Positions 326 to 23,082 of a DNA stretch of 25,235 nt are shown piece by piece. The position numbers and the translations under genes were made by a program. The DNA is from a virus: positions 1-25,235 of the IMG/VR virus record IMGVR_UViG_3300017989_000419, one strand, 5' to 3'. Numbering within the stretch: the first letter of the stretch is position 1; each line of letters begins with the position of its first letter. Under the pieces are notes generated by a model. The model saw only the letters and a list, made by a program, of their open reading frames with translations. It did not search any database and was not told the origin of the DNA.

Positions 326-404
326 TGTAATCGGTTGTTTAGCAATTAATCTTCAACGAACTCAACCTGTACTAAAAATCATTGAAACGCTTTTTAGTAA
401 GCCG

Positions 405-626
405 TTAGCGGTAATTAAGTTCTTTATAATCTTGAACCCTACTTACTTCCATTATTCCACCACTCGTAAAACAAAAGTACATCTTTCCATTTCCATAATA
501 ATCTCTGCACTTAGCAGGCTCATAGTCTCTGTCCTTGTAGGTTTTTACCCAATAATAACTACCGCTAACAACAGGTATAGTTAATGCCTGTTCTGTGCTT
601 TCTTGCTCTTTTTTTTCTGTGTTCAT
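405..626 (-). CDS. Hypothetical phage protein
   Basis: 73 residues. A polar N-terminal tail (about residues 1-16, rich in E and Q) precedes a compact domain with many aromatic residues (S-Y-Y-W-V-K, Y-E-P-A-K-C-R-D-Y, M-Y-F-C-F-T). This arrangement resembles small phage proteins with a beta-rich core, but I cannot assign a function. It is part of the leftward operon, and a 79-base gap without a convincing ORF separates it from the next gene. Confidence 0.6.
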   Translation of the reverse strand: MNTEKKEQESTEQALTIPVVSGSYYWVKTYKDRDYEPAKCRDYYGNGKMYFCFTSGGIMEVSRVQDYKELNYR

Positions 627-661
627 AATTCTGTTTTTATCTGTTAATTTTCGAGTTTAAA

Positions 662-904
662 TCAGGCACTAACCATACCCAAGTCCGTTGTAAAACATAA
701 AATTATTCGCTCGGTTATTGAAGATTGTTCTACTGCATCAAAATTTAAGTCAGTTGCATCCGACAAGTTTTTAAACAGTTCTACTAAGTCTTTTCCCGTT
801 GTAGTTACCATAACGTCATCACAAGGAATGTAATAAGCTGAATACCCTGCGCTAGTCTTTTCTACAACTACTTCAAATTGTGTATAATTTTCTTCTTTCA
901 TCAT
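662..904 (-). CDS. HicB-like small protein (orphan)
   Basis: 80 residues. The pattern F-E-V-V-V-E-K-x-x-x-G-Y-S-A-Y-Y-I-P, then a Thr/Gly turn and an amphipathic helix (L-V-E-L-F-K-N-L-S-D-A), is that of the HicB antitoxin N-terminal fold (beta-beta-beta-alpha). There is no HicA toxin next to it and no C-terminal DNA-binding domain, so it is not a complete toxin-antitoxin pair. Its start (904-902) overlaps the stop of the upstream small gene. Role unknown; it could be a regulator or a toxin-neutralising protein. The fold assignment is moderate. Confidence 0.6.
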   Translation of the reverse strand: MMKEENYTQFEVVVEKTSAGYSAYYIPCDDVMVTTTGKDLVELFKNLSDATDLNFDAVEQSSITERIILCFTTDLGMVSA

Positions 905-6997: not shown

Positions 6998-7249
6998 ATG
7001 GGAACAGTTAACACAATGAGTGCGATGCATAATCACATACAGCACATGGTAAGAAAGGGTATGATAGACCTTGATGATTTCTACAATGTATCATATGACA
7101 GGAGCAGAATTATACTGCAAGGTAGGTACTCATCTAGTAAGATATCTGATTACAAAGAGTTTTGGACTTTCAGTATAGATGATGTCAATGGCTTTGTGGA
7201 GGGTCAGTCAGACATTGATGGGGTAGAAGTTAAAATAGTATTAACATAA
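6998..7249 (+). CDS. Hypothetical small phage protein
   Basis: 83 residues with H-N-H-I-Q-H-M-V near the N-terminus, a helix, and beta strands (S-R-I-I-L-Q-G-R-Y, F-W-T-F-S-I-D-D). The arrangement resembles small uncharacterised Bacteroidetes phage proteins. Preceded by an A-rich leader (aataaacaATG). No function assigned. Confidence 0.6.
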   Translation: MGTVNTMSAMHNHIQHMVRKGMIDLDDFYNVSYDRSRIILQGRYSSSKISDYKEFWTFSIDDVNGFVEGQSDIDGVEVKIVLT

Positions 7250-7262
7250 TAAGTTAGGAACA

Positions 7263-7850
7263 ATGAAAAAGCAAATTGATTTAAGAAAAAGATGCGATGA
7301 GTCTGATAAGATATGCGCTTACTTTAAGATAGGTTACCGACCTATTAACGATTGGAACGAACTCATGCCAGTTGTTCAGAAGGTGGCTGATGATATACTT
7401 GGATTGCATGATGGAAGCTATTGCGATGCTGATACACTATATGAACATAACTTTGTAAATCTGCTATACAAAGATGTTCCATATGTCAGGAACATTGTCT
7501 GCAATACAATAGATTGGCTACACAAACAGACCAGAACAGTAGTGCATGGGTGTCTATACAGACTTACTGTTGAGAATCTTTGCAAGCATGAAGAATTATG
7601 GGATGCGTTTAAGGATGAACAGATACACCATGTAATTGATGGTGCATATGTATGGATAGTAGATGGTGGCGAGGGTCAAGTGTTCAGTTTCGTTGATGAT
7701 GTATGGGTAGATAGTAAAGGTGTGGTCATAGGTTACTCTGCTGACTTCTGCAACGAGTTCATAAAAGCAAGAACGAAGATTGAAATTATAACCAAACTCT
7801 ACGATTGTGCTGGAGATAATGTTGAACCTAAAATAGTATTTGAGTCATGA
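7263..7850 (+). CDS. Hypothetical phage protein, 195 aa
   Basis: 195 residues, starting after TTAGGAACAATG, where a variant of the repeated CAGGAAC word acts as or overlaps the ribosome-binding region. The protein is mixed alpha-beta with many Cys, Asp and Trp residues and no motif I recognise. A second copy of the repeated word (7485-7494) lies in the coding sequence as V-R-N. Stop overlaps the next start (ATGA). Confidence 0.65.
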   Translation: MKKQIDLRKRCDESDKICAYFKIGYRPINDWNELMPVVQKVADDILGLHDGSYCDADTLYEHNFVNLLYKDVPYVRNIVCNTIDWLHKQTRTVVHGCLYRLTVENLCKHEELWDAFKDEQIHHVIDGAYVWIVDGGEGQVFSFVDDVWVDSKGVVIGYSADFCNEFIKARTKIEIITKLYDCAGDNVEPKIVFES

Positions 7851-10035: not shown

Positions 10036-10476
10036 ATGAAAGAAGGAATAAACGTATTATCACTATTTGATGGAATGAGTTGTGGGCAGATTGCTCTTGA
10101 CAAATTAGGTGTAAAGGTCAACAAGTACTTTGCTTGTGAGATTGACAAGTACGCAATGCAGGTAACTCAACATAACTTTCCTGACACCATACAGTTAGGA
10201 GATGTTCAGTTCGTTACAAAGGAGACTTTTGGTAATCACAAGATAGATATTATAATAGGTGGGAGTCCTTGTCAGGGCTTTAGTTTTGCAGGTAAGATGC
10301 TGAACTTTGATGATCCACGCAGTAGACTGTTCTTTGAGTATGTCAGGCTCGTTAAGGATTTGAAACCCAAGTACTTCCTGCTTGAGAATGTCAAGATGAA
10401 GAAAGAGTCTCAGGATGTCATTACAGAAACGCTATTTATCACTACCAACGGTAATGATTGGGAGAGGGTTGATTAA
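10036..10476 (+). CDS. C5-cytosine DNA methyltransferase, N-terminal half
   Basis: 146 residues carrying the AdoMet-binding and catalytic half of a C5-methyltransferase. Motif I is L-S-L-F-D-G-M-S-C-G-Q (residues 8-18), motif IV G-G-S-P-C-Q-G-F-S-F (catalytic Cys79), and motif VI L-L-E-N-V (115-119). Motifs VIII-X and the target recognition domain are missing here and are found in the gene at 11151. The protein ends with N-D-W-E-R-V-D at a TAA. It would need the second half to methylate DNA. Role in phages: protection from host restriction or regulation. Confidence 0.85.
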   Translation: MKEGINVLSLFDGMSCGQIALDKLGVKVNKYFACEIDKYAMQVTQHNFPDTIQLGDVQFVTKETFGNHKIDIIIGGSPCQGFSFAGKMLNFDDPRSRLFFEYVRLVKDLKPKYFLLENVKMKKESQDVITETLFITTNGNDWERVD

Positions 10477-10512
10477 TTGTTTATATTTACAGGAACGAGT
10501 TAATTAAAATAG

Positions 10513-11154
10513 ATGATAATAGATAAAGAAGTTTACGTCACTGTATCTGGTAGTAATAAACCATATTACGAATCTCTCGGATATACACTACCATACTCAA
10601 TAGATAATAGAGGGCGTTTGCGTGTAAAAAAGGGGTCTAAGATATTAGTAGATATCCTACACGTACACAAGACAAGTAACATTAAAATAAATTATAAGTG
10701 CGACTCCTGTGGGGCTGTAAAAGAAACATCGCTGTCTTCGGTTATTGGAAGACGTAATAGCGAATACAATAAAAGCGGTAAAACATTTTGCAGTAGTTGC
10801 GCTAATAAAAAAATGTCTGGTGCTAACAACGCCAACTATAAACATGGGTCTAAAAGATACCCTGAATATAGGAACAACGCAAAGAGAAGAAATATTGATT
10901 TTAATCTATCTCCAAATGAGTTTAAATCAATAACATCTGAACCTTGTCATTATTGTGGCGGGTACTCTACTGACTATGACCTTAAAAGCAGGGGCAATGG
11001 AATCGACAGGATGGACTCTTCTTTAGGGTATACTACTGACAATTGCTTGCCATGTTGCTCTAAATGCAACTTCTTGAAAAACAAGTCAAGCTATGAGGAC
11101 TTCATTAACTACATAATTAAAGTATACAAAAACATAACAAAAAAGAAATCATGA
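10513..11154 (+). CDS. HNH homing endonuclease inserted in the methyltransferase gene
   Basis: 213 residues. The N-terminal part has a C-x2-C ... C-x2-C zinc knuckle (Y-K-C-D-S-C-G and F-C-S-S-C-A). The C-terminal part (about residues 140-195) has C-H-Y-C-G, then G-I-D-R-M-D-S-S-L-G-Y-T-T-D-N-C-L-P-C-C-S-K-C-N-F-L-K, the zinc and N-x-x-x-C-C-x-x-C-N-x-x-K part of phage HNH nucleases of the I-D-R-x-D type. Such nucleases cut DNA at the uninvaded allele and spread their own gene. It sits exactly between the two methyltransferase halves, and its TGA overlaps the start of the second half (ATGA). Confidence 0.88.
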   Translation: MIIDKEVYVTVSGSNKPYYESLGYTLPYSIDNRGRLRVKKGSKILVDILHVHKTSNIKINYKCDSCGAVKETSLSSVIGRRNSEYNKSGKTFCSSCANKKMSGANNANYKHGSKRYPEYRNNAKRRNIDFNLSPNEFKSITSEPCHYCGGYSTDYDLKSRGNGIDRMDSSLGYTTDNCLPCCSKCNFLKNKSSYEDFINYIIKVYKNITKKKS

Positions 11155-12284
11155 AATTCAAAAACAAAAAAACAGGGGAAATAGTGGAATGGGACTGTAT
11201 CAATATAAATTCAGCGTTAGTTTCCGCTCAGACACGTAAGCGGCTGTACTGGACGAACATTCCAAATGTAGACCAACCAGAGGACAAGGGCATTGTACTG
11301 AAGGATATTATTGAGAGTGGCTACGTAGATGACAGAATGGTTAATCAAGGTAAGTCTCATTGTGTAACGGCAAGATACTCAGGAGCTGTTTGGTGGAACT
11401 CAATAGAAAGAAGGCAAAGAACTATGATTGCTTTAGAGCAGGTGGATGACATCGTTGAACTTAATGAGAATCAACAGAAGAAGATTGAAAAAATCAATAA
11501 CGTAAATCCCGACAAGGCAAACTGTTTGACAGAGGCAATTGGAAGAGGCGGTAGTAGTTCTGAGTACCTTACAAGCGTGAAGAAAAAGACTGATGCCATT
11601 AAGCAAGTAGGAGACAAACTCCGCCACCCAGAGGCAACTAAGAAAGGCTACGCTGAAGCAGGTCATGGTGAGGGTCTTGACCTTACATTCCCACAGTCAA
11701 AGACACGTAGAGATCGTTCAATGAAAGACAAGTCCAACTGTCTTACCGCAGCAAGTCATGATATGGGGGTTGTAGAAGCTGTAAAGGGAGGTGCTGTAAG
11801 AGGCAGGTACAACGAAGATGGTAAAACAGAACAGCGTCTTGAGGTCAGGAAAGATGACAAGACCAACTCAATAACCACAGTTCAAAAGGATAGCGTTGTA
11901 GTAAGACCAGCTACAATTGTTGGGAGAAGACTCAATGAACGTGGAGTAAGAGAGGACTACAATAAGGATGTTCCAATTACTCAGTGTTTACAAGTGAAAC
12001 ATAATTCTGATAAGACAGGAACATTGACAACCGTAGAGAAGGACAATGTACTTAGCGAGAATGAGCCTGGGCGTTACCCTAATGCTTACGAGGACAAAAA
12101 ACTTGTATGGAGAAAGTTAACTCCCTTGGAATGCGAGAGGCTTCAAACCGTTCCTGATTTTCACACACTTGTTTTGGACGAGAACGGTAAGCAGTTGGTA
12201 AGTAATTCTCAGCGTTACAAGATGCTTGGTAATGGATGGACTATAGATGTAATTACTCACATAATGAAAAACATGGAACTATGA
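11151..12284 (+). CDS. C5-cytosine DNA methyltransferase, C-terminal half with repeat-bearing TRD
   Basis: 377 residues. Residues 18-36 (I-N-I-N-S-A-L-V-S-A-Q-T-R-K-R-L-Y-W) are the region around motif VIII. Residues 320-371 (W-R-K-L-T-P-L-E-C-E-R-L-Q, then Q-R-Y-K-M-L-G-N-G-W) are motifs IX-X. The target recognition region between them has five units of the form (D/G)-K-x-(N/H/G)-(C/S/T)-x-T at about 68, 121, 193, 236 and 287. The catalytic half is separate (10036-10476). Split C5 enzymes that work as two subunits are known, so activity is possible. Start coupled to the HNH stop. Confidence 0.87.
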   Translation: MKFKNKKTGEIVEWDCININSALVSAQTRKRLYWTNIPNVDQPEDKGIVLKDIIESGYVDDRMVNQGKSHCVTARYSGAVWWNSIERRQRTMIALEQVDDIVELNENQQKKIEKINNVNPDKANCLTEAIGRGGSSSEYLTSVKKKTDAIKQVGDKLRHPEATKKGYAEAGHGEGLDLTFPQSKTRRDRSMKDKSNCLTAASHDMGVVEAVKGGAVRGRYNEDGKTEQRLEVRKDDKTNSITTVQKDSVVVRPATIVGRRLNERGVREDYNKDVPITQCLQVKHNSDKTGTLTTVEKDNVLSENEPGRYPNAYEDKKLVWRKLTPLECERLQTVPDFHTLVLDENGKQLVSNSQRYKMLGNGWTIDVITHIMKNMEL

Positions 12285-12532
12285 AAAACGAAATAGAAAT
12301 AGATAAGGTTCTTTTCCCCGATTCAGATAAACTAACTATAAGTGAAGAGGGTGTTGGTAGTTTTCAAATAGTTGACGCTGAACTTGATGGTATAAATTGC
12401 ACTATAAGTGAAGAGGATGTTATTGAGATTGATGTGTCTGACTATAAATACATATCTCTTTCCTACAACAACATTCTTACTCTTGAGAATTTTATATATG
12501 AGATGAATGAGTTTTACGAAAATGAAAACTAA
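12281..12532 (+). CDS. Acidic hypothetical protein
   Basis: 83 residues from ATG 12281, which overlaps the methyltransferase stop (ATGA). Strongly acidic (K-L-T-I-S-E-E-G, I-S-E-E-D-V-I-E-I-D-V-S-D-Y). L-T-I-S-E-E-G-V and C-T-I-S-E-E-D-V form a short internal repeat encoded by near-identical bases. Small acidic phage proteins often act as DNA mimics or partners of nucleases, but nothing here proves that. Confidence 0.6.
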   Translation: MKNEIEIDKVLFPDSDKLTISEEGVGSFQIVDAELDGINCTISEEDVIEIDVSDYKYISLSYNNILTLENFIYEMNEFYENEN

Positions 12533-12533
12533 A

Positions 12534-13220
12534 ATGAAGAAATACATAGCATACTACAGGGTATCAACACGCAAGCAGGGTGATTCTGGTCTTGGTCTTG
12601 ATGCTCAGAAGAGAATGGTTCAAGGTCATGTCAGGAACGATGTCATCCTTGAGGAGTTCACTGAGGTAGAGTCAGGTACAAGCAAAGGCAAACGCCCCAT
12701 ACTACAACGGGCAATACAAAGATGCCAGGATGAGGGAGCCACTCTTGTGATAGCCAAGATAGACCGACTATCTCGTAACTTACATTTTGTATCAAGCCTG
12801 TATCAATCGGGTGTTGACTTTGTGTGTTGCGATATGCCACACGCCAACAAACTAACCATACATCTCTTTGCAGCGGTAGCAGAACATGAGGCTGACATCA
12901 TATCAGAACGTAACAAGGCCGCTGCTCAGTCTATCAAGAAGATAATTGAGCGTGATGGGTTTTACGTGTCCAAAGCCGGAAACAGGATCACCAAGCTTGG
13001 TGGGTGTGAGAATCCTAATACCACTCCTGCCAACAAAGCATGGAAGGAAAAAGCACGTAACAATAGAAATAAGAATGTTGCAAGACCGTTTGCTCAAGAG
13101 TTGCGTAGGCAAGGTATTGGATATTGTACTATTGCTCACAGGTTAAATGAGGCAGGTTACAAAACATCAAGAGGTAAGATGTATTATGATAAAACAGTTT
13201 ACAGGCTTTTAAATGAATGA
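12534..13220 (+). CDS. Serine recombinase (resolvase family)
   Basis: 228 residues. The N-terminal catalytic domain (about 1-140) begins M-K-K-Y-I-A-Y-Y-R-V-S-T-R-K-Q-G, with the nucleophile Ser11 in Y-R-V-S-T, then L-G-L-D-A-Q, D-R-L-S-R-N and E-H-E-A-D-I-I-S-E-R-N. The C-terminal part ends with a helix-turn-helix-like F-A-Q-E-L-R-R-Q-G-I-G-Y-C-T-I-A-H-R-L-N-E-A-G. It lacks the long zinc-ribbon domain of large serine integrases. ATG 12534 follows the previous stop directly; 12522 is an alternative. It may invert or resolve phage DNA. A copy of GTCAGGAACG (12630) is in the coding region. Confidence 0.88.
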   Translation: MKKYIAYYRVSTRKQGDSGLGLDAQKRMVQGHVRNDVILEEFTEVESGTSKGKRPILQRAIQRCQDEGATLVIAKIDRLSRNLHFVSSLYQSGVDFVCCDMPHANKLTIHLFAAVAEHEADIISERNKAAAQSIKKIIERDGFYVSKAGNRITKLGGCENPNTTPANKAWKEKARNNRNKNVARPFAQELRRQGIGYCTIAHRLNEAGYKTSRGKMYYDKTVYRLLNE

Positions 13221-16318: not shown

Positions 16319-16476
16319 AAACAGCACTAACTATCTACGTTACTATTTGCTTAATATGCCCGATTTTCAATTACCAAGAAGACAAGCCGATTCAAGAAGA
16401 GATTGATGTGGTTGATTTTTGGTGTGATTGTGGTGTTGTGGAAAGATGGGAAATGATACCTTTGAAGTGGGTGTAG
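16315..16476 (+). CDS. Small protein with hydrophobic N-terminus
   Basis: 53 residues: M-K-T-A-L-T-I-Y-V-T-I-C-L-I-C-P-I-F looks like a signal or anchor segment, followed by an acidic region and F-W-C-D-C-G. No convincing lipobox. The TAG stop is immediately followed by the attC-like site described below. Function unknown. Confidence 0.5.
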   Translation: MKTALTIYVTICLICPIFNYQEDKPIQEEIDVVDFWCDCGVVERWEMIPLKWV

Positions 16477-16541
16477 TCAACGGTTCGGATAAAAATTGAA
16501 ATACTAACCTGACATTGGCTTTTAGCCTTTGTTGTAAAAAC
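16476..16541. repeat. attC-like site F (about 66 bases)
   Basis: Order of boxes: TCAACGG (R'' position), GGATAAA (16487-16493), TTTAGCC (16521-16527), GTTGTAA (16531-16537). GGATAAA and TTTAGCC pair with one mismatch, and the outer CAAC and GTTG pair. The length resembles the classic 59-base element of integron cassettes. The right half TTTAGCCTTTGTTGTAAAA is identical to bases at 21235-21253 in the array near 21 kb. No T-run, so it is not a normal terminator. Confidence 0.5.
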
Positions 16542-17182: not shown

Positions 17183-18025
17183 ATGGGGTGGATAAAGATT
17201 GACAGGAACATAACCGAGCATTGGTTGTGGACAGATGAGAAGAAACTGAAGTGGTGGTTGACCATACTTCTTGATGTTAATTACTCGGACAGAAAGATGG
17301 CGTTAGGGTATAATACTTATGAGATAAAACGTGGTCAATCACCAAACAGTATAAGAACCTGGGCAGGCATTTTTAAGACAGGAACGAAGTCAGTTGTAAG
17401 GTTCTTGAATATGCTTGAGAAAGACGGTTTGATAACGAAGGAAATCATAGGAAATGGGAAACACTCAACAACACTTGTAACTGTCTGTAAATACGATAGT
17501 TACGACTATGTGTGCAACGCAAAGGAAACGCAAGAGACAACAGTAAGTACCACGCAAGTGGATACGCAAGTGGATACGCAAGGGGGTGACATAAGAAGAA
17601 AGAAAGAAAGTAAAGAAAGAAAAAAAGAAAGAAATAATACAAATGCTCCAAGCATAAATGAGGTGATCGAGTATGTTGTAGGACAAGGATATCCTCAATC
17701 TATTGCTGAGAAGTTCCACTCACACTACACTGTCAAGGGCTGGGTTGTCAAGGATGGTTCTAAGATTGATAATTGGAAAGGTCTTCTGAATAACACTTGG
17801 TTCAAGAATAGAAAAAAGTCAAGTGTCAAGGCTCCACCATTAGAGCCAGGATGGAAGTATGTAGATATGTCTGAGGCTTATGATATTGTGCGTGATCAAA
17901 ATAATGTAAGTTTGTCAGAGAAAGTAGCAATTGGCGCAGGAGATGATTACGTCAGGAAGATGATGAACATGAACCCTTCATTTCACACTGTAGGTGAAGG
18001 ATGGAAATACAGAGAGAAGAAATGA
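17183..18025 (+). CDS. Winged-helix phage replication protein (helicase-loader/initiator type)
   Basis: 280 residues. The N-terminal part (1-115) W-I-K-I-D-R-N-I-T-E-H-W-L-W, K-L-K-W-W-L-T-I-L-L-D-V-N-Y-S, R-G-Q-S-P-N-S-I-R-T-W-A and V-R-F-L-N-M-L-E-K-D-G-L-I is a winged-helix domain of the DnaD/phage replisome organiser kind found in Bacteroidetes prophages. A linker with T-Q-V-D-T-Q-V-D-T-Q and a Lys/Glu-rich run follows, then a C-terminal helical part that should contact the helicase. It overlaps the primase-helicase gene (ATGA), as expected for a loader or initiator. Confidence 0.78.
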   Translation: MGWIKIDRNITEHWLWTDEKKLKWWLTILLDVNYSDRKMALGYNTYEIKRGQSPNSIRTWAGIFKTGTKSVVRFLNMLEKDGLITKEIIGNGKHSTTLVTVCKYDSYDYVCNAKETQETTVSTTQVDTQVDTQGGDIRRKKESKERKKERNNTNAPSINEVIEYVVGQGYPQSIAEKFHSHYTVKGWVVKDGSKIDNWKGLLNNTWFKNRKKSSVKAPPLEPGWKYVDMSEAYDIVRDQNNVSLSEKVAIGAGDDYVRKMMNMNPSFHTVGEGWKYREKK

Positions 18026-19725
18026 AAAAACTGTTTGAGAGAGAGATAAGTATTTACGAGAGTCTGTATGATTTGGATTCAAGCCATGTGATAACTGTAG
18101 GTCAGGCTCTTGGTCGTATCAAGAAAGGGAAGAGCAAGGATAAGGTTGAGCAGATACGTAGACTTGGAACAGGAAAGGAGCGTGATAGTGTTAAGAAGAG
18201 TTTACCATCACCTTTGTTCTCTGGCGTATTCAAGTCACGTAACGACAACAACATCATCTCATACACTGGTCTGATATGTTTGGATTTTGATCACTGCAAG
18301 ATAGTTGAGAAAATGTCTGAGCTGAAAAGAAACAAGTACGTGATAGCGTGTTGGGTTTCTCCGAGTGGAAACGGGGTTAAGGCATTGGTAGAGGTGTCAC
18401 ATCCGGAAAAACATCTTCAGCACTTCGATGCCATGCTTGAGGATTTCAAAGAACTTGATCCTACAGGTAGAAATCTGAGCCGTGTGTGTTTCGAGTCTTA
18501 TGATCCAGATATGTACATTGCCCGTAAGTGGGAGGTGTATGACAGGATGATTGAGAAAGTGTATGATGCCGTTCCTGTCAAAGTAACAACCGAAAACAGC
18601 ATCTACGAGAAACTCAAGAAGTGGATGATAAACAAGGGAGAAGGATTCTTTGAGGGTAATCGTAACAACTTCGTATTCAAACTTGCCTGTGGATGTCTTA
18701 GATTCGGTTTAACAAAAGATGAGATAAGAAGCCCAATGATCGGAGATTTCTGTGGCGGCTCATTCACTGTGAAGGAGTTGGATATCATAATCAACTCGGT
18801 ATACAGAAACTACGCATCAGATTTTGGTACTGCTGAGTTCACAGATGATGATAGACTCATACATACAGTTACAAGAAAAAGCATTGAGCAGCAACTTGAG
18901 TCGTTGGATGGACCTCTTGAGGATGTAATATACCTGAATGACATCTTTCCTGATATGTTAAAGGACTTTCACTCTGGAAATCAAAAAGGAGAGACAACCC
19001 ACTTCTCTGGAATTGACGAAAGATTCAGGTGGTGTAGGGGAGAGATAACAATTGTTGGAGGAATAGGAAACTTCGGTAAATCCACTATGATGCTACAACT
19101 TATGCTTATGAAATCATTGATGGATGGTTATAAGTGGGCGGTATTCTCACCAGAACAATATCCACCTAAGTTCTTCTATAATCAATTGATTCATGCGATG
19201 GTAGGAAAGTCACCATACAAACATCATCATAATCAAATGTCTGAGGATGAGTACAGAAGGGCGGCAGAGAAACTGAACGATAAGTTCTACTTCATATACC
19301 CTGAGAAGGAGATGCCGAGCCAGGAGTACATCAACAGAAAGTTTGTTGAGGCCATGATAAAGCATAACATCGATGGATGCATGATAGATCCATTCAATGC
19401 AATCTACAGAGATAGACGAAACAATCTGCGTGATGATCAATTCTTGGAGGATTTTTTCAGAGTTCAGAAGAAGTTTGCTTTAGAGAACAACGTCTACATG
19501 ATAATAGTTGCTCACCCGAACAGCTCCATACAGAAGGATGAGAGAACAGGTGATTACAAATGTCCGAGGGTCTATGACTTTGCCGGAGGTGCTATGTGGA
19601 ACAATAAGGCAGACAACATCATCATGTTCCATAGACCGTATTACAATTCACAGCCACAGGACTCCACATCTCAGTTCATTTCTCAAAAGATAAAGAAGAA
19701 GGAACTTAATGGAACTACTGGATAA
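18022..19725 (+). CDS. Primase-helicase (BT4734/VirE-like N-terminus, RecA-type helicase), probably truncated
   Basis: 567 residues from ATG 18022 (overlapping the upstream stop); an in-frame ATG at 18001 is less likely. The N-terminal BT4734/VirE-like primase domain shows L-D-F-D-H (87-91) and W-V-S-P-S-G-N-G-V-K-A-L (111-122). The C-terminal helicase has Walker A G-G-I-G-N-F-G-K-S (346-354), Walker B-like G-C-M-I-D-P-F-N-A-I (452-461) and I-V-A-H-P-N (495-500). It should unwind DNA and make primers for phage replication. It stops at K-E-L-N-G-T-T-G with TAA, while the same frame continues with helicase-like sequence to 19884. Confidence 0.85.
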   Translation: MKKLFEREISIYESLYDLDSSHVITVGQALGRIKKGKSKDKVEQIRRLGTGKERDSVKKSLPSPLFSGVFKSRNDNNIISYTGLICLDFDHCKIVEKMSELKRNKYVIACWVSPSGNGVKALVEVSHPEKHLQHFDAMLEDFKELDPTGRNLSRVCFESYDPDMYIARKWEVYDRMIEKVYDAVPVKVTTENSIYEKLKKWMINKGEGFFEGNRNNFVFKLACGCLRFGLTKDEIRSPMIGDFCGGSFTVKELDIIINSVYRNYASDFGTAEFTDDDRLIHTVTRKSIEQQLESLDGPLEDVIYLNDIFPDMLKDFHSGNQKGETTHFSGIDERFRWCRGEITIVGGIGNFGKSTMMLQLMLMKSLMDGYKWAVFSPEQYPPKFFYNQLIHAMVGKSPYKHHHNQMSEDEYRRAAEKLNDKFYFIYPEKEMPSQEYINRKFVEAMIKHNIDGCMIDPFNAIYRDRRNNLRDDQFLEDFFRVQKKFALENNVYMIIVAHPNSSIQKDERTGDYKCPRVYDFAGGAMWNNKADNIIMFHRPYYNSQPQDSTSQFISQKIKKKELNGTTG

Positions 19726-19884
19726 TGCATATTAACCTACAATGTTATGAATGGTAGATTTTACGATGACGGAGTAAACCCATTGGAACTCGACAAGCAC
19801 GAGTATGTTGTGAATAGCCAGGCAATGCGTCAAGCGAGGATGCATTATACCATAGATAAAGACGTAGACAAAGTTCCATTTTAG
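19726..19884 (+). pseudogene. Apparent C-terminal remainder of the primase-helicase
   Basis: Immediately after the TAA at 19723-19725 the same frame reads C-I-L-T-Y-N-V-M-N-G-R-F-Y-D-D-G-V-N-P-L-E, ending D-K-V-P-F at TAG 19882-19884. RecA-type helicases of this class normally finish with a strand and a G-R-F-Y-like turn after the K-x-x-x-L-x-G-x-x-G segment, so the two parts look like one protein of about 620 residues cut by a single stop. ATG 19747 could start a separate 45-residue peptide. The stop may be a mutation, an error or readthrough. Confidence 0.5.
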
Positions 19885-19908
19885 AACGTTGAGTATGAAA
19901 TTTCGTTT

Positions 19909-19943
19909 TAACGGCTTATTAACGCTGAGTATATGAGCCGTTA
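19909..19943. repeat. Inverted repeat TAACGGCT/AGCCGTTA
   Basis: Perfect 8-base arms at 19909-19916 and 19936-19943 with a 19-base loop, 24 bases after the end of the helicase frame. The related words AACGTTGAGTAT (about 19885) and AACGCTGAGTAT (19921) form a direct repeat around it. It marks the left edge of the cassette-like array. Confidence 0.6.
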
Positions 19944-19950
19944 TGGCTTA

Positions 19951-19977
19951 TATACATTATATACATTATATACATTG
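19951..19977 (+). repeat. Threefold 9-base tandem repeat
   Basis: TATACATTA occurs three times in tandem (last base changed to G). It directly precedes GTTATACCAC, the left inverted-repeat box of cassette A. Such AT-rich tandem repeats are prone to slippage. Confidence 0.85.
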
Positions 19978-20003
19978 TTATACCACGTTTAATTTAAAAT
20001 ATA

Positions 20004-20324
20004 ATGGATAGAAATATAAGTGAAACACCTGAAAGATGGGTGATAGTTAAATTACCAAACAACTACTATAAAGTTTTTGGAACTTGGGCAGGTGGTTATT
20101 TAGATGGTGATAGATGGAAATTAAATTCAGGAATTAGTAAAGTAGAACAAGACGAAAACTTTTATTATTTTATTGGCTTTAGTGGAAGTTGTTATAAGTG
20201 CCACAAAAAAGCTTATGGAATAGCAACATCTTACGGATTAGGTGTTTTAAATAAAAGAATAGAACAAGGAAACGGACAGATTGAATTAATGGAAGATGTC
20301 GATGATTGGGTAAATGTGGTATAA
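20004..20324 (+). CDS. Cassette A ORF, hypothetical protein
   Basis: 106 residues, AT-rich and with different codon use from the phage genes (many TTA, AAA, GAA). Y-K-V-F-G-T-W-A-G-G-Y-L-D-G-D-R-W-K-L-N-S-G-I looks like a beta hairpin typical of small Bacteroidetes accessory proteins, and G-S-C-Y-K-C-H-K-K has one C-x2-C-H. The ORF lies between GTTATACCAC (19977-19986) and its exact inverse GTGGTATAAC (20316-20325), which overlaps the TAA stop. Function unknown. Confidence 0.68.
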   Translation: MDRNISETPERWVIVKLPNNYYKVFGTWAGGYLDGDRWKLNSGISKVEQDENFYYFIGFSGSCYKCHKKAYGIATSYGLGVLNKRIEQGNGQIELMEDVDDWVNVV

Positions 20325-20440
20325 CGGTTTTGTATATGACACGTAGCAAAACAGACCTTTGAATAGAGAATAAATTATTAATTAAGCACATAGTTTAAAA
20401 ATAGCCTAACAGCTATGTGTTATATACTTTGTTAGGTGTA
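20316..20440. repeat. attC-like site after cassette A
   Basis: GTGGTATAAC at the stop codon, then GTATATGACACGTAGC (20332-20347), which pairs with GCTATGTGTTATATAC (20412-20427) over 16 bases with only two G-T pairs. GTTAGGTGTA (20431-20440) then begins cassette B. Outer TAAC and GTTA pair as well. This nested order (R'', L'', loop, L', R') is the layout of an integron attC site; the loop is about 64 bases. A smaller hairpin CACATAG/CTATGTG competes with it. Confidence 0.6.
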
Positions 20441-20449
20441 GTTTATTTT

Positions 20450-20716
20450 ATGATGAAATTAGATGAAAAATCTAAAGCCCAAAGTTGGGAATTAGAAGTA
20501 ACTTGTAAGAATAGGGAATACCTTAATGAGGTGGTAAAAGCCATATTAAAATATGGTATGATGAATTTTGAAGTGAATATTGTTGAATGCCATAGTAACC
20601 ACGAAGGATGGGAAGGTAGCTATACTGTTTTAATATGGTGTAGTTGGTTTAGTAATTTGGGCGACATTGCCAAAGACCTAAAGAAAATAGAGAAGCGTTT
20701 AGAAAATTACACCTAA
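20450..20716 (+). CDS. Cassette B ORF, hypothetical protein
   Basis: 88 residues from ATG 20450 (a GTG at 20417 in the same frame is inside the attC-like hairpin). W-E-L-E-V-T-C-K-N-R-E-Y-L-N-E-V-V-K-A-I-L-K-Y-G is a strand followed by a helix; the C-terminus is a charged helix. The ORF is bracketed by GTTAGGTGTA (20431-20440) and TACACCTAAC (20708-20717), the latter overlapping the stop. No family recognised. Confidence 0.65.
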   Translation: MMKLDEKSKAQSWELEVTCKNREYLNEVVKAILKYGMMNFEVNIVECHSNHEGWEGSYTVLIWCSWFSNLGDIAKDLKKIEKRLENYT

Positions 20717-20880
20717 CGATTCGCGGATAAGGCGAGTTGTGGCGCAGCCTCAACAAGTAGCCTTTGAAGCGCCACTATTCGCCTTATGCCCTGTTGGAGA
20801 CACGTTAGTTACATGAGAGATTAAAGGAAATAAACAACCTATGCCGTGGCGTTTCATCCGCGAATCGTAGGAGCAAATTA
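20708..20880. repeat. attC-like site after cassette B, with large GC-rich hairpin
   Basis: TACACCTAAC at the stop codon is followed by CGATTCGCGGAT (20717-20728), which is the exact inverse of ATCCGCGAATCG (20856-20867). Inside lie ATAAGGCGA (20727-20735) with TCGCCTTAT (20779-20787) and GTGGCGC (20739-20745) with GCGCCAC (20769-20775). An alternative R' box GTTAGTT is at 20803. The long nested pairing without a T-run argues against a terminator. It ends in CGTAGGAGCAAATTA, the left box of cassette C. No ORF is visible between 20717 and 20907. Confidence 0.6.
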
Positions 20881-20907
20881 AGAACAGAAAAAACAAAATT
20901 TAAAATC

Positions 20908-21123
20908 ATGGAAGACTTATACGAGGATTACGAAGAAAACACTTTAGAAAGCTGCCCAAGATGTGACTTGACATTCGATGAAATTGACTTTGAATTTCAA
21001 GCATGCTCTAAATGCGGTTATGACTGTGAAAAAGGTAGCGTTGACCATAGTTCTATCCGTAATCCTACATCTGCTGACATTGATTCTGGCGACTATGATT
21101 TGTTAAATGGTCGTTGGATGTGA
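20908..21123 (+). CDS. Cassette C ORF, zinc-ribbon-like protein
   Basis: 71 residues, acidic. C-P-R-C at residues 16-19 and C-S-K-C-G-Y-D-C at 33-40 form a clear two-knuckle zinc ribbon. The ORF lies between CGTAGGAGCAAATTA (20866-20880) and its perfect inverse TAATTTGCTCCTACG (21154-21168), 15 bases each. Function unknown; small zinc ribbons are frequent in mobile cassettes. Confidence 0.65.
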   Translation: MEDLYEDYEENTLESCPRCDLTFDEIDFEFQACSKCGYDCEKGSVDHSSIRNPTSADIDSGDYDLLNGRWM

Positions 21124-21146
21124 TTTTACCTTTTGTGACTGTTCGA

Positions 21147-21253
21147 CCGTAGGTAATTTGCTCCTACGGAGTTGGCTAAGAAATGTTGCCACTAAATACA
21201 TTTCAAATTAACCACAATGACGGCTGCAATATTATTTAGCCTTTGTTGTAAAA
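21147..21253. repeat. attC-like site after cassette C
   Basis: CCGTAGG (21147-21153) and CCTACGG (21163-21169) form a local hairpin. Then GGCTAA (21174-21179) pairs with TTAGCC (21236-21241). Inside is the hairpin GAAATGT (21180-21186), loop TGCCACTAAAT, ACATTTC (21198-21204). GTTGTAAAA (21245-21253) begins cassette D. The 19 bases TTTAGCCTTTGTTGTAAAA (21235-21253) also occur at 16521. Confidence 0.6.
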
Positions 21254-21263
21254 TCGTAAGAGC

Positions 21264-21473
21264 GTGGAAGAAGAAAAATGGAGAACAGCAAAGTGGAAAG
21301 GAACACTAATACACACCATGAGCAACAGATGGCTGAACAACATTAGGAAGTACTTTAGAGAAGGGGATGGAAGGGAGAAGATACAACCGATAATGAATGA
21401 GATTAAAAGACGTAAATCCGTTAGAAAAAAACGTGGTTGCCCTGCTGATAACGCTGCAAAGAACCGCGCGTAG
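21264..21473 (+). CDS. Cassette D ORF, basic hypothetical protein
   Basis: 69 residues with a GTG start at 21264; ATG 21318 in the same frame would give 51 residues beginning M-S-N-R-W-L-N-N-I. Strongly basic with R-K-Y-F-R-E-G-D-G-R-E-K and E-I-K-R-R-K-S-V-R-K-K-R. It may bind nucleic acid. Bracketed by GTTGTAAAA (21245-21253) and TTTTACAAC (21481-21489). No family recognised, and the coding call is moderate. Confidence 0.5.
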   Translation: MEEEKWRTAKWKGTLIHTMSNRWLNNIRKYFREGDGREKIQPIMNEIKRRKSVRKKRGCPADNAAKNRA

Positions 21474-21480
21474 GCTTATG

Positions 21481-21616
21481 TTTTACAACGGTTTGGCTAA
21501 AGTGAGTTGCCTTTAAATACTCACTACACTTTCAAATTAGAATGACATGAGTAAAAAAGAAAAAACCTCCGATAACCACGAACAAGGCAATTCATCTTTA
21601 GGTGTTGTTAGCGCAC
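21481..21616. repeat. attC-like site after cassette D
   Basis: TTTTACAAC then GGTTT then GGCTAAAG, followed by hairpin AGTGAGT (21501-21507), loop TGCCTTTAAAT, ACTCACT (21519-21525). CTTTAG at 21596-21601 could pair with CTAAAG (21497-21502), and GTTAGCGCAC (21607-21616) is the left box of cassette E. The left half TTTTACAAC-n5-GGCTAAA is complementary to the right half TTTAGCC-ttt-GTTGTAAAA of the sites at 16521 and 21235, as expected for simple half-sites of one attC family. Confidence 0.55.
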
Positions 21617-21774
21617 GTTTTTTTGATGTTGGTGATTATGTTCAGTATTCTAAATATGGGGCACATGAAGTCATTGATTATTGCGACAACCACCAAGAGG
21701 CGTTACTAAATTATTGCGGTGATTGGTTTTTTGCCCCATATAGCAGAATAAAACCTTTGCCAAATGTGCGCTAA
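21547..21774 (+). CDS. Cassette E ORF, hypothetical protein
   Basis: 75 residues. The N-terminal 20 residues (M-S-K-K-E-K-T-S-D-N-H-E-Q-G-N-S-S-L-G-V) are encoded inside the attC-like region. From F-F-D-V-G-D-Y-V-Q-Y on it looks like a compact beta-rich domain ending W-F-F-A-P-Y-S-R-I. TGTTAGCGCAC (21606-21616) and GTGCGCTAACA (21766-21776, overlapping TAA) bracket that domain. The N-terminus may be supplied by the preceding site. Function unknown. Confidence 0.58.
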   Translation: MSKKEKTSDNHEQGNSSLGVVSARFFDVGDYVQYSKYGAHEVIDYCDNHQEALLNYCGDWFFAPYSRIKPLPNVR

Positions 21775-21966
21775 CAATCGCTAAGTAACACGACAAATTT
21801 GTCGCATATAACCAACTGAAAAACAAGTAGTTGATGTTTCAAAAACTGAAACAGTCATCCAATGTCAGTAGCTTAGAAATATCAATAGGACAATTTTGTC
21901 GCAATTTTAGAACTCAATTACATTACGACATGATTAATTAATTTAGCAATATCAAAAAAAAGAAAG
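21775..21966. promoter_or_regulatory. Leader of the recombination operon with palindromic operators
   Basis: No ORF. CGACAAATTTGTCG (21791-21804) is a perfect 14-base palindrome; GACAATTTTGTC (21889-21900) repeats its arms, both followed by GCA. CTAAG (21781) and CTTAG (21872), and GTTTC/GAAAC (about 21836-21851), add weaker pairs. Two similar palindromes 98 bases apart upstream of the YqaJ gene look like operator sites for a dimeric repressor. No clear promoter was found. Confidence 0.45.
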
Positions 21967-23082
21967 ATGAAGAAAAGTTGGGTAGTTAGAATCAAAGACA
22001 GAACCCCTGAGTGGTTTGAATACAGGAATAACGGTTTAGGAGCATCATCTGCTGCCATCGTGTGTGGATTGAGTCCGTACAAACCTACAAAGATGCAGTT
22101 GTTCCACGAGAAGGTAGGAACTATGGAACCGGATAGAACAATGTCCGCACCTGCATTTCACGGAATACACCAAGAGGCTTATGTAGCGAATCTTTGGAAG
22201 TATTACGATGGAACTGAAGATGGATACATGGACAACTTTGAACGTGGAGAAATCATAAGAAAAGCAAGTCAACTTGTTGGATTCGTACAGAACCCAAAGT
22301 ACCCACATCTGTACTGCAACTTGGATAGGGTTATTGAGAAAGGTTCACGAAAGCTGAACGATGACGGAACATTGTCTGATGAGTTGACAAGTAAACCTTG
22401 TCCACTGGAGATTAAGACGATGAACGGATTCGTCTACAAGAAATACGATGGCGTTCCTGATATGTACATTTTACAGGTTCATCAGCAGATGATGATAATG
22501 GAGTGTGACTATGCTGAGATAGCCATACTGATTGATGGAAGAGGATTCAAGGTCTTTCCAATAGAGCGTAACGAGGATATCGTAGACATGATAACTGAAA
22601 GAACATACGATTTTTGGAGTCGTGTTCTTCAGGGTAGAAAGGCTCTTATTCAGGCTGAAATGGCTAAAGAGGATGATGACTTTGAAAAGTACCACGACTA
22701 CATGGGGGTCATACAGCAACTTGAACCTGAACCTGACGATAACGAAAACTACTCAACGTTCCTGTCAGATACTCACACTGTAGAGCAGGAGATAATGATG
22801 GGGAATGATGATCTATTAGGGCAGGTACAGCACCTTCAAACAGTCAAGGAAATGATCAAGCAACTTGAAAAAGAAAAACGAGAGCTTGAGAACAAAGTCA
22901 AGAATGAGTTTAGAAAAGAGTCCGTAGAGAAGATAGAGTTCCCTGGGCATGGATACATGAGGTACTATCAACGAGCCAATAACAACACCAAGATGTTGGA
23001 TGTAAGAATCAATAAGCCAGACCAATTCGTCATCGGAGTTGAATTGGAAAATATTGATAGGAAAGTAGGTTATATAATTTAA
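21967..23082 (+). CDS. YqaJ-type phage exonuclease
   Basis: 371 residues. G-L-G-A-S-S-A-A-I-V-C-G-L-S-P-Y (about 23-38) and F-H-G-I-H-Q-E-A-Y (64-72, Glu70) match the YqaJ/lambda exonuclease N-terminal motifs. Asp120 in N-L-D-R and Glu148-x-Lys150 in L-E-I-K are the metal-binding and catalytic residues of this PD-(D/E)xK fold. A coiled coil follows at about 295-320. The enzyme degrades one strand at double-strand ends to give 3' overhangs that the ERF-like protein encoded next can anneal. Start follows an A-rich leader. Confidence 0.9.
   Translation: MKKSWVVRIKDRTPEWFEYRNNGLGASSAAIVCGLSPYKPTKMQLFHEKVGTMEPDRTMSAPAFHGIHQEAYVANLWKYYDGTEDGYMDNFERGEIIRKASQLVGFVQNPKYPHLYCNLDRVIEKGSRKLNDDGTLSDELTSKPCPLEIKTMNGFVYKKYDGVPDMYILQVHQQMMIMECDYAEIAILIDGRGFKVFPIERNEDIVDMITERTYDFWSRVLQGRKALIQAEMAKEDDDFEKYHDYMGVIQQLEPEPDDNENYSTFLSDTHTVEQEIMMGNDDLLGQVQHLQTVKEMIKQLEKEKRELENKVKNEFRKESVEKIEFPGHGYMRYYQRANNNTKMLDVRINKPDQFVIGVELENIDRKVGYII

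Follow-up and report, generated by a model that had tools for sequence, protein, structure and literature searches.

CALINs, arrays of attC-like sites and small genes without an integrase, have been described in phages, Polaribacter phage P12002L included (Qi et al., 2023; PMC9892861). In that study IntI1 was active on five of six phage attC sites, activity was reported on a P12002L attC as called in that study, and the divergent attC directions of P12002L were taken as mosaicism. A survey with IntegronFinder 2.0 found complete integrons to be almost absent from the phylum, a single one being named in Bacteroidetes proper, that of Salinibacter ruber (PMC9024848).

The locus analysed here resembles the phage CALINs in its attC-like sites, small genes and lack of an integrase. 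The initial annotation had proposed an integron-like cassette array inside a phage, and this central idea holds; it had also thought such an array unusual in a phage, for which a precedent exists (Qi et al., 2023). Unlike the classical site orientation of that study, reversed polarity is systematic in the viruses compared below, and two aspects go beyond it: units move as site plus gene, and a conserved element ends the arrays. P12002L itself carries candidate sites of the present type at 30906–30958 and, more weakly, at 38045–38077 and 38889–38923, all on the same strand as their genes.

The window, a virus record of 25,235 bases from IMG/VR, carries the array between a primase/helicase gene (18001–19725, with BT4734-N and DnaB_C domains) and a YqaJ gene (21967–23082). 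Five small open reading frames, A to E, lie there with an inverted R'/R'' pair around each, just as first described; a direct check of the window confirmed that right arm and stop codon overlap in A, B and E, and that the C pair departs from GTT/AAC, with a variant core. As also noted initially, no integrase is in view: no tyrosine recombinase was found in the 25,235 bases. The window and most of the viral records are fragments, so a phage-borne integrase could lie beyond their ends. The features are as follows, the units being the candidate mobile units argued for below.

19878–19887, plus strand: left border, ATTTTAGAAC, where the helicase reading frame ends.
19924–20325, plus strand: unit A, site followed by ORF 20004–20324, R'' ending at 20325; L'' GTATATGAGCC at 19929–19939, L' GGCTTATATAC at 19945–19955, R' at 19977; bracketing pair GTTATACCAC 19977–19986 and GTGGTATAAC 20316–20325.
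20326–20717, plus strand: unit B, site followed by ORF 20450–20716, R'' ending at 20717; L'' 20332–20346, L' 20413–20427, R' at 20431; bracketing pair GTTAGGTGTA 20431–20440 and TACACCTAAC 20708–20717.
20718–21167, plus strand: unit C, site followed by ORF 20908–21123; site made of GATTCGCGGAT 20718–20728 and ATCCGCGAATC 20856–20866, core GTAGGAGC/GCTCCTAC; bracketing pair CGTAGGAGCAAATTA, 20866–20880 and 21154–21168.
21168–21489, plus strand: unit D, site followed by ORF 21264–21473, R'' ending at 21489; L'' 21174–21190, L' 21222–21241, R' at 21245; bracketing pair GTTGTAAAA 21245–21253 and TTTTACAAC 21481–21489.
21490–21775, plus strand: unit E, site followed by ORF 21547–21774, R'' ending at 21775; L'' 21497–21511, L' 21586–21601, R' at 21607; bracketing pair TGTTAGCGCAC 21606–21616 and GTGCGCTAACA 21766–21776.
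21776–21801, plus strand: conserved terminal element, AATC-GCTAA-N5-ACGACAAATTTG, newly recognised here.
21904–21913, plus strand: right border, ATTTTAGAAC; TCAATTAC comes next, as it does in empty phages.
404–686, minus strand: unit F, an extra unit newly recognised here, ORF 626–405, R'' 413–404; L'' 679–665, L' 588–574, R' 569–560.

Between 19885 and 21966 there are four tandem GTT...AAC pairs of at least 9 nt each. Dinucleotide shuffling of the array region (n = 5,000) gave no, one or two tandem pairs in 4548, 433 and 19 cases, respectively, and other 2-kb stretches of the window hold 0–2 pairs. Tandem one-gene units bounded by GTT/AAC-core sites, as expected of a CALIN, are therefore present, unit C having the variant core. 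The insert begins past the AAC of the left border with GTTGAGT, an exact GTTRRRY, and the 10-nt repeat ATTTTAGAAC stands at both of its ends. It can be seen from the empty relatives L004 and L007 that an unoccupied junction has one ATTTTAGAAC with TCAATTAC directly after it; the L007 sequence reads CCATTTTAGAACTCAATTAC. The helicase frame of the window stops early, at a TAA (19723–19725) shared with L001 and L030, where relatives have a sense codon and about 45–50 more residues; its remainder (19725–19884) is open from an ATG at 19747.

About 45 loci with both genes were recovered in scans using the YqaJ and helicase proteins, and the gap between the two ranges from 199 to 2,244 bases. The junction is empty in L004, L005, L007, L015, L017, L024 and L050, holds other cassettes in three lineages (L008/L032, L022 and L038/L040), and is occupied by an HNH endonuclease gene or other small genes in several relatives; the window's own array recurs in L001 and L002/L030. 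The initial annotation had called for this comparison, and the variable content of the junction excludes the outcome that would have told against a cassette array, namely the same ORFs in all relatives. Searches with the nucleotide sequence against phage records found no real relative, and a scan with an L022 cassette protein found no match beyond itself.

Several further observations concern this junction and HNH genes. The junction HNH genes of L009, L021, L031, L011, L025 and L008 have a conserved leader of about 130 nt upstream, TTTATATCTTTGT..CCTTACT..CTTGGTTCTGGGGGTATTTTT, with stem-like halves. In L008 the helicase C-terminal tail (GAAGAAGTTCCATTTTAA) occurs a second time, at 7141–7330 past the terminal element, a pattern that would fit arrival of its array from another phage by recombination. 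Elsewhere in the window, a cytosine-methyltransferase-like gene is split into 10036–10476 and 11151–12284 with an HNH-like ORF (10513–11154) between the parts, and alignments of L005 and L053 skip about 10428–11204.

The genes of the array gave no function when compared with Pfam, NCBIfam and PHROGs, and Rfam returned a single chance miRNA match; ORF C (20908–21123) has zinc-ribbon-like cysteines. The protein of cassette A (20004–20324) has distant homologues of 34–44% identity in Celeribacter, Alteromonas and Synechococcus phages, which suggests that gene A is part of a wider phage gene pool.

ORF A also provides evidence on movement. It occurs in 23 viral contigs, 21 of them beyond the window's two near-identical copies, at 77–91% protein identity. 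In 17 of these DNA homology stops at or just past GTGGTATAAC and the downstream sequence differs; in several it also starts at or near GTTATACCAC. The repeat is missing from L343–L346. Whole units, cut at the AAC core, distinguish the members of two close phage pairs, about 94% and 99% identical: L329 and L330 have flanks of about 99% identity and different units between GTGGTATAAC and (C)GCTAAC, and L337 has one unit more than L340, spanning from past GTGGTATAAC to CTTATAAC. The exchanged unit is a site with a start codon in its loop, then a gene, then R''. Thus, as far as sequence comparison can establish it, close relatives differ in cassette content with borders at the core, as is expected of a CALIN.

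The order of site and gene within the unit was reflected in gene polarity. A string taken from a phage site, ACAACGGTTTGGCTATG, matched 44 viral stretches and, in genomes, at least 119, mostly of Bacteroidota, and the viral and genome motif groups share a second half, ...TATAG-N5-GTT, beyond what the pattern demanded. On viral contigs the ratio of genes on the same strand as the motif to genes on the opposite strand was 26:2 upstream and 31:0 downstream, whereas on genome contigs it was 10:67 and 10:94 (Fisher p 2e-14 and 4e-22). Judged from these counts, genes in phage arrays have the opposite direction relative to the site, so that the site comes before its gene. The initial annotation had placed an attC after each gene; together with the L337/L340 and L329/L330 differences, the polarity counts instead indicate that the phage mobile unit is a site plus its downstream gene, and in this respect the array departs from a CALIN.

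This arrangement has a consequence for the reading frames. There are seven viral cases in which an ATG within the site begins a frame that passes R'; in six of them GTT at R' is a frame-0 codon, and inspection found it in frame in window units E and F, L329 and L337 as well. The start codon of ORF E (21547) lies in the loop of site E, its frame passes through the core, and no in-frame ATG, GTG or TTG near R' offers an alternative start; ORF F likewise starts within the loop of site F. Read in this way, some phage sites encode a start codon and a leader of about 17–22 residues in frame with the core. Supply of the leader by the upstream cassette was also considered, and is ruled out by L337/L340, which puts the leader in the gene's own unit.

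An alternative is that the array is a relic host CALIN, captured once by illegitimate or homologous recombination and since immobile, the differences among phages being ordinary mosaicism. Phage CALINs have been explained in this way (PMC9892861), recombination proteins of the phage include ERF and YqaJ, and L008 repeats the helicase tail after its array, as if a block had been transferred whole. However, single capture does not account for the gain and swap of units in phages 94–99% identical, with borders at the core, nor for a gene polarity opposite to that of host arrays, which implies that the phage cassettes are not simple copies of host cassettes. We consider this explanation unlikely.

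Exchange at the core is matched by the structure of the site. A covariance model replaced the initial attC regular expressions, which missed most sites. In the model, built on 31 sites, 92% of pair cells are paired and 69 cells have changed on both sides; none of 500 shuffles gave covariation as high, and the signal was lost when partners were slid by one column. The stem has two conserved G.T pairs (28/31 and 22/31), and on direct reading the L arms of B, D and F have G.T at two positions five apart. Sites of this type thus fold as R-L-loop-L-R with covariation, and the concern raised at the outset, that the hairpins might not fold as attC sites do, is answered for the type. Within the window, attC model matches were obtained for site E at 21483 (E 0.00085) and site D at 21161–21251 (E 0.046), site F gave a weak R1 match at 693–667 (E 1.2), and A, B, C and F had weak or no match to the site model. 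An attC hairpin with R and L boxes is accordingly found for the site type and for D and E, the boxes of A, B and F come from direct reading, and C is atypical. In site A the spacer between the L' arm and R' is lengthened by three tandem copies of ATATACATT (19949–19976). A further possible attC-like site lies at 16475–16537, between ORFs of 53 and 47 aa (R1 E 0.018), with a poor stem. In DNA folding, the motif strand outperformed the complementary one at most of the sites folded, B and F being uninformative; this is consistent with, although it does not prove, the motif strand being the reacting strand.

Hairpins beside small genes could also be terminators or regulatory RNAs of ordinary accessory genes, the pairs having no role in recombination. 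Small ORFs without a known function are indeed common in the junction and some lack sites (L010, L012, L014). Against this, each pair brackets its own gene with its arms 170–350 nt apart, homology stops at the pair, and the same structured site divides genes in Bacteroidota arrays beside a recombinase; such a reading therefore seems very improbable.

Past the last cassette, GCTAA-N5-ACGACAAATTTG is common to the window, L008 and L022, and a scan for the terminal element found it in 14 viral stretches directly past a cassette-type ...AAC. The unit inserted in L337 adjoins a related sequence, TCGCT..TTTACG. Because of its position and this insertion, the element at the end of several arrays is possibly attI-like. 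No copy of it was found in the fetched host loci.

To characterise the genomes that share the site, 27 were reached via the motif; 32 recombinase loci were fetched and scanned, since whole-genome model scans undercount long-loop sites. The best TIGR02249 match was usually a protein of 360–400 aa aligned to profile positions of about 2–182 and 239–315, with a score below the 265-bit cut-off in 27/27 genomes. Compared with VchIntIA (2a3v), one host recombinase is missing about 43 residues at the IntI-specific insert, and its best solved relative is XerA (5hxy). By this comparison the additional domain specific to IntI appears to be absent from the Bacteroidota platform. For two host recombinases the best family match was NF040815, 'site-specific tyrosine recombinase/integron integrase', at 216 and 230 bits (cut-off 220). 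They resemble this XerA type, from which the host recombinase differs in about 90 extra N-terminal residues and in being linked in the genome to attI-like and attC-like arrays.

Model sites occur in 22 loci, and in 19 of them every site lies 3' of the recombinase in one orientation (the exceptions are L304, L288 and L297); in most recombinase loci without sites the contig stops near the recombinase. Eight Xer control loci yielded no site at E<0.01. In 22/32 loci an attI-like ATATA...GTTR follows the recombinase stop within 220 nt, compared with 3.5% of random windows. On sequence grounds, then, an array of one-gene cassettes adjoins the host recombinase, with an attI-like site beside the gene at the array start. 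Because the genomes were selected for the motif, it is this linkage, and not frequency, that counts as evidence; among 296 genomes of the phylum, co-occurrence of motif and recombinase was moderate (13/20 versus 79/276, p 0.002), with a recombinase set that includes shorter relatives.

The host platform is like an IntI integron in its recombinase, attI-like site, one-gene cassettes, R''-L''-L'-R' hairpins and GTT/AAC core. It is unlike one in that the recombinase has no IntI-specific insert and scores under the TIGR02249 cut-off, and in that it reads in the direction of its cassettes; the phage arrays are set apart by reversed gene polarity and no recombinase in view. Of the integron idea, the cassette array therefore stands, while membership of the canonical integrons is not established, the host recombinase having no IntI-specific insert.

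Comparison between genomes establishes, at the level of sequence, the identity of the cassettes, the borders of exchange, the structure of the site, the reversed polarity and the linkage of host recombinase, attI-like site and array. We consider it likely that the array belongs to an integrase-less, reversed-polarity integron-like type of Bacteroidota phages, with recombination probably carried out in trans by an enzyme of the host. The mobile unit would be a hairpin recombination site plus one small gene, ending at the ...AAC that opens the next unit, and in some units the site would supply the start codon and leader. Units would be exchanged by recombination at the AAC/GTT core, one observed insertion lying beside a putative attI-like terminal sequence, with phage transcription entering from the left as the presumed means of cassette expression. 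The enzyme, acting on folded site DNA, is probably supplied by the host, because Bacteroidota genomes with the same site encode a tyrosine recombinase of about 375 aa beside an attI-like site and array. The action of the host recombinase on phage sites, the identity of the strand that reacts and the part of the terminal element as attI are inferences.

Exchange of a structured hairpin site at AAC/GTT is characteristic of integron-type tyrosine recombinases. This pattern does not fit the remaining candidate, the phage's own serine recombinase, whose gene (12507–13220, Resolvase domain) lies in the window and might have moved the cassettes; a similar gene is present in empty-junction relatives such as L005/L053. 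We give this possibility very little weight.

A broader reading, towards which we lean with some reserve, is that Bacteroidota hold an integron family missed by IntI criteria, with a XerA/IntI-like recombinase lacking the IntI patch, and that phages keep a separate, reversed cassette pool, served by the host recombinase, with site-encoded starts and an attI-like terminus. Phage CALINs are known; for the polarity rule, the site-encoded starts and the Bacteroidota platform, our search, which covered open-access literature, brought up no description. It appears that viruses of Bacteroidota have their own cassette system for trading genes. If this is correct, phages would run a cassette trade on host machinery, beyond occasional relics, and host and virus cassettes would be kept in opposite expression orientations. 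A new class of integron-like platforms would exist in a phylum nearly without complete integrons (PMC9024848), and cassette traffic between host and virus, together with the role of site polarity, would become directly testable.
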